A stretch of DNA of 64,000 nucleotides from Streptococcus canis (GTDB taxonomy: Bacteria > Bacillota > Bacilli > Lactobacillales > Streptococcaceae), in the NCBI RefSeq assembly GCF_900636575.1, contig NZ_LR134293.1, positions 1,427,501 through 1,491,500 of the forward strand, given 5' to 3'. Below are positions 29,176 through 29,421 of this stretch, in pieces. The notes under the pieces were generated by a model that ran no database searches, had not been told where the DNA came from, and saw only the letters and a program-made list of their open reading frames with translations. The position numbers and the translations under genes are program-made. The number at the start of each line of letters is the position of its first letter. The stretch's first letter is position 1.

Positions 29176-29345
29176 AAAAAAAGCACCGACTCGGTGCTCA
29201 CTTTTTCAAGTTGATTACGGACTAGCCTTATTTTAACTCGCTATGTTGTTTTGAATAGTCCCAACAAGATTATTTTATACTTTTTTAGGAAAATAATCAA
29301 GGAGAAATCAAAGAAATTTACAAGCAATAAAACACTACATAATAC
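29176..29345 (-). ncRNA. tracrRNA: tracrRNA (long and short forms)
   Basis: Minus-strand RNA that pairs with crRNA repeats and scaffolds Cas9. From 29265 downwards it holds the anti-repeat (GUUGGGACUAUUC...), the nexus (AAGGCUAGUCCG), a stem (CAACUUGAAAAAGUGAG) and the terminator hairpin GCACCGAGUCGGUGC with seven U. The short form should start near 29265, from TTGATT (29295-29300) and TAAAAT (29272-29277), spacing 17 bp. The long form, about 170 nt, should start near 29345 from an extended -10, TGATAATAT (29352-29360). Sizes match the 89- and 171-nt forms of S. pyogenes SF370. The long form carries a repeat-like GUUUUAUUGCUUG (29321-29333) preceded by an 11-nt guide (29334-29344). Confidence 0.93.
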
Positions 29346-29388
29346 AATCTAATATTATCAAAATAAGTTAGTTAAGAGAAGGATTTTG

Positions 29389-29421
29389 TGTTATAATTAT
29401 TTTATATTATTATGTAGTTAG
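29389..29421 (+). promoter_or_regulatory. cas9 operon promoter (Pcas) with predicted tracr-L target
   Basis: An extended -10, TGTTATAAT (hexamer 29392-29397), predicts a start near 29404. No good -35 is seen. Immediately downstream, TATTATGTAGT (29408-29418) is an exact 11-nt match to the guide of the long tracrRNA, followed by TAG (29419-29421), which fits the NNG PAM reported for this Cas9. The rest of the 135-bp leader to the cas9 start is AT-rich and shows no other feature. Confidence 0.7.

Follow-up and report, generated by a model that had tools for sequence, protein, structure and literature searches.

Background

In Streptococcus pyogenes, the long form of the tracrRNA (tracr-L) is reported to guide Cas9 to an 11-nt site by the cas promoter (Pcas), with cleavage apparently prevented, and eleven paired bases appear to be too few for cutting (PMC8616872). 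This autorepression of Pcas by tracr-L, which is covered by PMC11417352, PMC8616872 and PMC12216829, depends on the PAM beside the operator: in S. pyogenes the operator PAM is GGG and a change from GGG to GGC relieves repression, and in S. mutans, where it is AGG, cas expression goes up when AGG is mutated to AGC (Kim and Marraffini 2024, PMC11417352). According to the same source, the S. pyogenes enzyme (SpCas9) uses NAG weakly. In S. agalactiae the tracr-L autorepression loop is reported as conserved, although some lineages have lost the autorepressed promoter, a loss that goes with particular Cas9 variants (PMC12216829). The Cas9 of S. canis (ScCas9) is described as recognising NNG and as mildly preferring A as the second base (PMC7822910); CTG has been reported as one of its less preferred PAMs, and its derivative Sc++ is said to work strongly on NAG and NGG but weakly on NCG and NTG (PMC11848528).

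Here we describe the corresponding locus in a window of 64,000 nucleotides, the whole stretch of DNA that was analysed, from an S. canis genome of 2,084,744 bases. S. canis is a dog-associated streptococcus. The layout of the circuit that we propose is already known from S. pyogenes, and its new part is the operator PAM, which is not NGG. Among the matches listed from open-licence PMC titles and abstracts, no description of the operator of S. canis or of the PAM beside it was found. The founding tracr-L paper is that of Workman et al. 2021 (Cell), and the survey of type II-A systems in it may list S. canis.

Results and discussion

Guide, target and promoters at the cas9 locus

The window holds a type II-A operon, with cas9, cas1, cas2 and csn2 accompanied by a tracrRNA (Table 1). 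A first-pass annotation of this DNA had placed an 11-nt guide directly followed by a repeat mimic on the minus strand, as well as a plus-strand copy of the eleven bases with TAG immediately after it, and direct reading bears out both placements; the match between guide and target is exactly 11 nt long. It had also located the target 4-14 bp after the predicted start of cas9, which is right if the start of transcription is meant and wrong for the ATG, since the target begins 11 bases past the end of the extended -10 and about 140 bases 5' of the ATG.

Table 1. Features of the tracr-L/cas locus, with positions counted from the first base of the window
Feature	Position	Strand	Basis and remarks
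Short tracrRNA, RF02348	29176..29266	-	Rfam match, 101.9 bits against a gathering score of 70
Predicted long tracrRNA (tracr-L), 171 nt	29176..29346	-	5' end putative
Repeat mimic GTTTTATTGCTTG, begins GTTTTA	29321..29333	-	direct reading; immediately 3' of guide
11-nt guide of predicted tracr-L, TATTATGTAGT	29334..29344	-	direct reading; identical to the Pcas site
Candidate -10 of tracr-L promoter, TAATAT	29352..29357	-	proposed from position
Extended -10 of Pcas, TGTTATAAT	29389..29397	+	direct reading; +1 expected near 29404
11-nt target in Pcas, copy of TATTATGTAGT	29408..29418	+	+4 to +14 from predicted +1
Operator PAM, TAG	29419..29421	+	direct reading; directly after target
cas9, S. canis type, 1375 aa	29557..33684	+	TIGR01865; 98% to S. 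canis record P0001
cas1	33684..34553	+	TIGR03639
cas2	34550..34894	+	TIGR01573
csn2	34881..35546	+	TIGR01866
CRISPR array, 3 repeats and three 30-nt spacers	35681..35878	+	third spacer matches prophages, CAG/TAG flanks

The length given for tracr-L starts two bases ahead of the guide and runs through the end of the terminator T-run. The extended -10 of Pcas is aligned and conserved in S. halichoeri (locus L001) and in an S. pyogenes-like locus (L003). A simple sigma-70 promoter scan listed neither Pcas nor the tracr-L promoter, Pcas having been missed for want of a good -35. The idea that tracr-L pairs as an antisense RNA with the cas9 mRNA was also considered and was rejected: the guide has the same sequence as the sense 5' leader and not its complement, which leaves the template DNA strand as the one partner for pairing.

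Folding of the long tracrRNA, which the first-pass annotation had suggested as a check, does pair the mimic with the anti-repeat in the window (z -2.14, a value equalled by 5 of 200 shuffles), but shuffled mimics form duplexes of similar strength. Out of 1000 shuffled mimics, 310 were as good in the window locus (L002), 654 in the S. pyogenes-like locus and 580 in S. halichoeri, and in the fold of the S. pyogenes-like RNA the mimic is not paired with the anti-repeat at all. Folding therefore does not discriminate, and the duplex energy of the mimic was dropped as evidence.

Guide-target pairs across streptococci

Cas9 was searched for in 284 Streptococcus genomes, 87 of which matched, and the DNA upstream of cas9 was examined in 76 of these (nine distant, shorter Cas9s and two fragments were omitted, and a few of the 76 loci have fewer than 500 bases before the contig end). 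One named S. halichoeri locus was added, which is a duplicate of one of the 76 and brings the total to 77. As a pair we counted a guide abutting GTTTT with a target on the opposite strand 60-160 bp away, a limit that was chosen after a first listing of pairs had been viewed. By this definition 23 of the 77 loci bear a pair, or 22 of 76 after removal of the duplicate (L032, with the same guide and PAM as L001), and relaxing the search criteria for the remaining 54 loci brought up nothing else that was convincing. Several further listed pairs (e.g. in L020, L050 and L061) were set aside as lying outside the 60-160 bp limit, as was a 12-nt pair in the window region, CGCTTGTTTTTT, the ends of which are 33 bp apart in a hairpin-like manner. 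Beyond Streptococcus, Cas9 matches were obtained in 104 genomes of the order; none of 38 non-Streptococcus loci has a pair, a result with no bearing on PAMs outside Streptococcus. When compared with plasmids and phages, the tracr region gave just short partial matches, in the tracr part. Neither a search for relatives of cas9 in viral contigs nor searches with patterns of the tracr region, in the genus and in viral contigs, turned up anything informative.

The earlier suggestion that this layout repeats the S. pyogenes circuit in a sequence of its own holds up well. As with S. pyogenes tracr-L, the predicted RNA lies beside cas9, an 11-nt guide precedes a GTTTTA mimic, and the target is found just past an extended -10. 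The target position after the extended -10 is the same in S. halichoeri and in the S. pyogenes-like locus (the Cas9 of which is 98.5% identical to an S. pyogenes record), and by the same count tracr-L is 171 nt long in all three. The published long form of the S. pyogenes tracrRNA also has 171 nt. The Pcas of S. mutans is likewise reported to carry its operator downstream of the -10 and to be repressed by tracr-L, and differs from the window in its NGG PAM, where the window has TAG (PMC11417352).

Guide and target read TATTAAGTATT in the S. pyogenes-like locus, where the PAM is GGG, and TGTTATGTAGT in S. halichoeri, where it is AGG. Three positions vary among the window and these two loci, two of which separate the window from the S. 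pyogenes-like locus, and each change is found in guide and target alike. For a target to mirror the changes of its guide by chance, the probability is about 6e-4 in one comparison and 7e-3 in the other, at a divergence of about 20% in the region. The S. pyogenes-like locus further differs from the window in its GGG PAM, as opposed to TAG, and in the PAM-reading tail of its Cas9.

Several other arrangements were noticed among the loci. In L005 and L033 about 80-90 bases lie between the tracrRNA anti-repeat and the cas9 ATG, a gap so short that the autorepressed promoter seems to be absent, as in some S. agalactiae lineages. L023 and L068 carry a 17-nt repeat-like stretch, complementary to the anti-repeat, about 140 bases upstream of cas9 in the promoter region. 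Finally, in L256 (genome G174) and L257 (genome G072) the tracrRNA comes directly after CRISPR repeats, which looks like a fusion of repeat and anti-repeat; both genomes are absent from the listed Streptococcus Cas9 matches.

Operator PAMs and the PAM-interacting type of Cas9

Across the 22 distinct loci with a pair, the operator PAM is NGG in 20 (15 AGG, 3 GGG, 1 TGG and 1 CGG), the exceptions being TAG in the window and AAG in a distant species (locus L043 of genome G116). Exactly these two loci, among the 22, have a Cas9 with the PAM-interacting motif KQ..LRYQTVTE, which reads VKQGRLRYQTVTEV in the window and IKQANLRYQTVTEC in G116; the other 20 Cas9s are of the DRKRY, RKRY, RYRDY, RQRY or DRRRY types. 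Fisher's exact test gives p 0.0043 for the association of NAG operators with this motif, a value that rests on two loci and ignores kinship, although the two Cas9s share no more than 61% identity. The guide-target pair of G116 is 10 nt long, and its tracrRNA (L252/L253) is broken up over two contigs, at ends of an insertion sequence that have the 8 bases GTTAAAAT on either side; we read this as a recent insertion into a previously intact locus. The interruption weakens G116 as a data point for the association. For the wider claim that operator PAMs track the PAM domains of Cas9, two of the 22 loci speak in favour and none against.

A charged loop near residue 367 of Cas9 was tried as the cause of the PAM exception and was ruled out by two loci: L009 has a charged loop similar to that of the window, yet its operator PAM is AGG, and G116 is without such a loop. 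Nor was there support for the idea that KQ/SQ-type Cas9s lack pairs more often than others, as the difference is small (a pair at 1 of 11 such loci against 9 of 29 others, in a hand count among L001-L041 with L032 dropped as a duplicate).

The window Cas9 carries a loop at residues ~367-376 and an insertion of KQ towards the C-terminus, both in common with the S. canis record P0001, from which it differs in the sequence of the loop (GIGIKHRKRTTK in the window, GIDIKHRKRTTK in P0001). The KQ insertion near the C-terminus is a feature of ScCas9. A loop at ~367-376 is reported for ScCas9 as well (PMC11848528).

When compared with S. pyogenes Cas9 (P0023), the window protein is 88-93% identical over residues 2-1099 and 80% over 1100-1200, and identity falls to 50% over 1201-1300 and 47% over 1301-1375. 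Over these last two segments it is 82% and 87% identical to an S. dysgalactiae Cas9 that has the KQ motif (P0003), and another S. dysgalactiae Cas9 (P0029) has an S. pyogenes-like tail. Given this pattern of identities, the PAM-reading tail looks as if it had been exchanged within the group. Among the Streptococcus matches listed, the window's own Cas9 was the only one so close to the KQ-tailed S. dysgalactiae proteins (P0003-P0005). The tails of the window and G116 proteins are 47% and 59% identical over the same last two segments, i.e. the two NAG loci have a motif in common and no recent common tail.

The first-pass annotation had further proposed that guide, target and PAM changed together with the enzyme. 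The sequence data agree with this: the changes in guide and target mirror each other, and the exception in the PAM coincides with the PAM-domain type of Cas9.

Spacers and protospacers of the strain

The strain has nine spacers in all, three in the window array (W1-W3) and six in a second array (R1-R6). The latter, which lies outside the window near C1:1,765,860-1,766,295 (L225), has seven repeats and shares its leader with the window array. One IS3-family element has a copy beside each of the two arrays, and the relative orientation of array and element is opposite in the two cases.

Four of the nine spacers (W3, R2, R3 and R5) have protospacers that match in 29 or 30 of 30 bases. W3 is matched perfectly in two viral contigs, flanked by CAG, and with one mismatch in the S. 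canis prophage Javan94, flanked by TAG. R2 has perfect matches in 10 phage records, with CAG in 7 of 7 flanks inspected, R3 is matched perfectly in two S. canis prophages with the flank CTG, and R5 has one mismatch and the flank TAG. The best flank per spacer is hence CAG, CAG, CTG and TAG, all of them NNG and none NGG, in four spacers; the chance of a G at position 3 in 4 of 4 is about 0.001-0.002 at 18-20% G. What W3 (window 35849-35878) matches in Javan94 is the gene for a CI-like repressor, and its matches in other phages include similar genes for repressors.

The poorer matches, whose flanks were taken from those inspected among the weaker ones listed, are more mixed: TAT (2 mismatches), GAG and GAT (4 mismatches) for W3; CTA (1 mismatch) and TTA (4) for R3; TAG (2 mismatches) for R5; CAG, CAG and CAA (3 mismatches) for R2; and, for W2, which has just 4-mismatch matches, AAG and TTC. 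TAT, CTA, TTA, CAA, TTC and GAT thus lack a G at position 3. At the limits applied, the phage collection yielded no match for W1, R1, R4 or R6, a search with the seeds of W1, W2, R1 and R6 in viral contigs returned nothing informative, and W2 found itself alone in the 284 Streptococcus genomes.

The best protospacers agree with an NNG PAM for the window Cas9, in a small sample of four spacers out of nine and with poorer matches that are partly without the G, and this is the PAM that has been reported for ScCas9 (PMC7822910, PMC11848528). The CTG flank of R3 fits less well, being among the PAMs that ScCas9 is said to prefer less (PMC11848528). The first-pass view of TAG as a PAM that is not NGG and is nonetheless NNG, suited to the S. 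canis enzyme, is therefore in keeping with the strain's own best protospacer flanks, which are NNG throughout.

The proposed circuit and its alternatives

A tracr-L autorepression circuit whose NAG operator PAM suits an exchanged Cas9 tail is, judging from sequence comparison, very probably the best explanation for this locus. Transcription, loading, binding and repression, as well as the order of the evolutionary steps, are inferred. A second, upstream promoter (with the candidate -10 TAATAT at 29352-29357) would make the 171-nt tracr-L, and its 5' guide of 11 nt followed by the short repeat mimic would, as in S. pyogenes, form a natural single guide. With guide and mimic on one RNA, Cas9 could be loaded without a crRNA. 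The complex of Cas9 and tracr-L may then bind the template strand of Pcas at +4 to +14 beside TAG and block the initiation of cas transcription without cutting; since 11 paired bases are apparently too few for cleavage, the cell could in this way repress the operon and leave its own DNA unbroken. In this locus Cas9 would read the PAM with a C-terminal segment unlike that of S. pyogenes, accepting NNG and slightly preferring A in the second place, and such a tail would explain why the operator PAM is NAG and not NGG. Guide and target would have stayed matched to each other while the PAM differed, and the most likely history is that the PAM-reading tail was exchanged and that NGG at the operator gave way to NAG along with it, in a sequence of steps that is itself conjectural.

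One may also consider that a short AT-rich word simply happens to occupy both places. The word as such is indeed not rare: for a genome of 2.08 Mb the expectation is 3.7 copies of TATTATGTAGT, and 3 are present, the third being followed by CAA, and the rarity of the 11-mer was consequently dropped as evidence. It is the arrangement of guide and target, not the 11-mer itself, that is non-chance. In Markov shuffles of the 700-bp region around it the arrangement arose in 0 of 5000 at 11 nt or more and in 5 of 5000 at 10 nt or more, and over all loci a pair of at least 10 nt was present in 23 of 77 real regions as opposed to 7 of 7600 shuffled ones. Together with the homologous position and the mirrored changes in related species, these counts make coincidence a negligible prospect.

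Two other readings accept the circuit and question its present state. TAG might be a weakened PAM that gives looser repression and a higher set-point of Cas9, as might be supposed from the NGG found at 20 of 22 loci and from the weak use of NAG reported for SpCas9 (PMC11417352). The enzyme in question is, however, a Cas9 of the S. canis type, for which NNG with a slight preference for A at position 2 is reported (PMC7822910), and there is no NGG among the strain's best protospacer flanks, so we consider this reading unlikely. Even less probable, in our opinion, is a decaying remnant, in which a circuit that was functional in an ancestor with NGG would have had its PAM mutated away and would by now have ceased to repress. 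That a NAG operator departs from the common NGG, and that the only other such locus, in G116, has an interrupted tracrRNA, would fit decay; a perfect 11-nt match in a region of about 20% divergence, with three guide differences mirrored in the target, would not, and neither would the retention of G at position 3 of the PAM, the very base that NNG requires.

Conclusions

The autorepression circuit with an operator PAM suited to its Cas9 thus remains our preferred reading of the S. canis locus, and we lean, if only slightly, towards a more general one, namely that the operator PAM follows the PAM domain: a domain swap by recombination would have been accompanied by a rewriting of NGG to NAG, with guide and target kept matched, in at least two streptococcal lineages. 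If this is true, any type II-A Cas9 that has yet to be characterised would have its natural PAM written in its own promoter, and autorepression would act as a selective filter on the exchange of PAM domains. Natural single-guide autorepression is known for NGG Cas9s, and a self-target whose non-NGG PAM matches a relaxed-PAM Cas9 would show how a Cas9 can change its specificity without losing control over its own expression. For a genome-editing enzyme, the promoter and the strain's own spacers offer native evidence as to its PAM. The case also suggests that operator PAMs could help to predict the PAMs of orthologues that are as yet unstudied.
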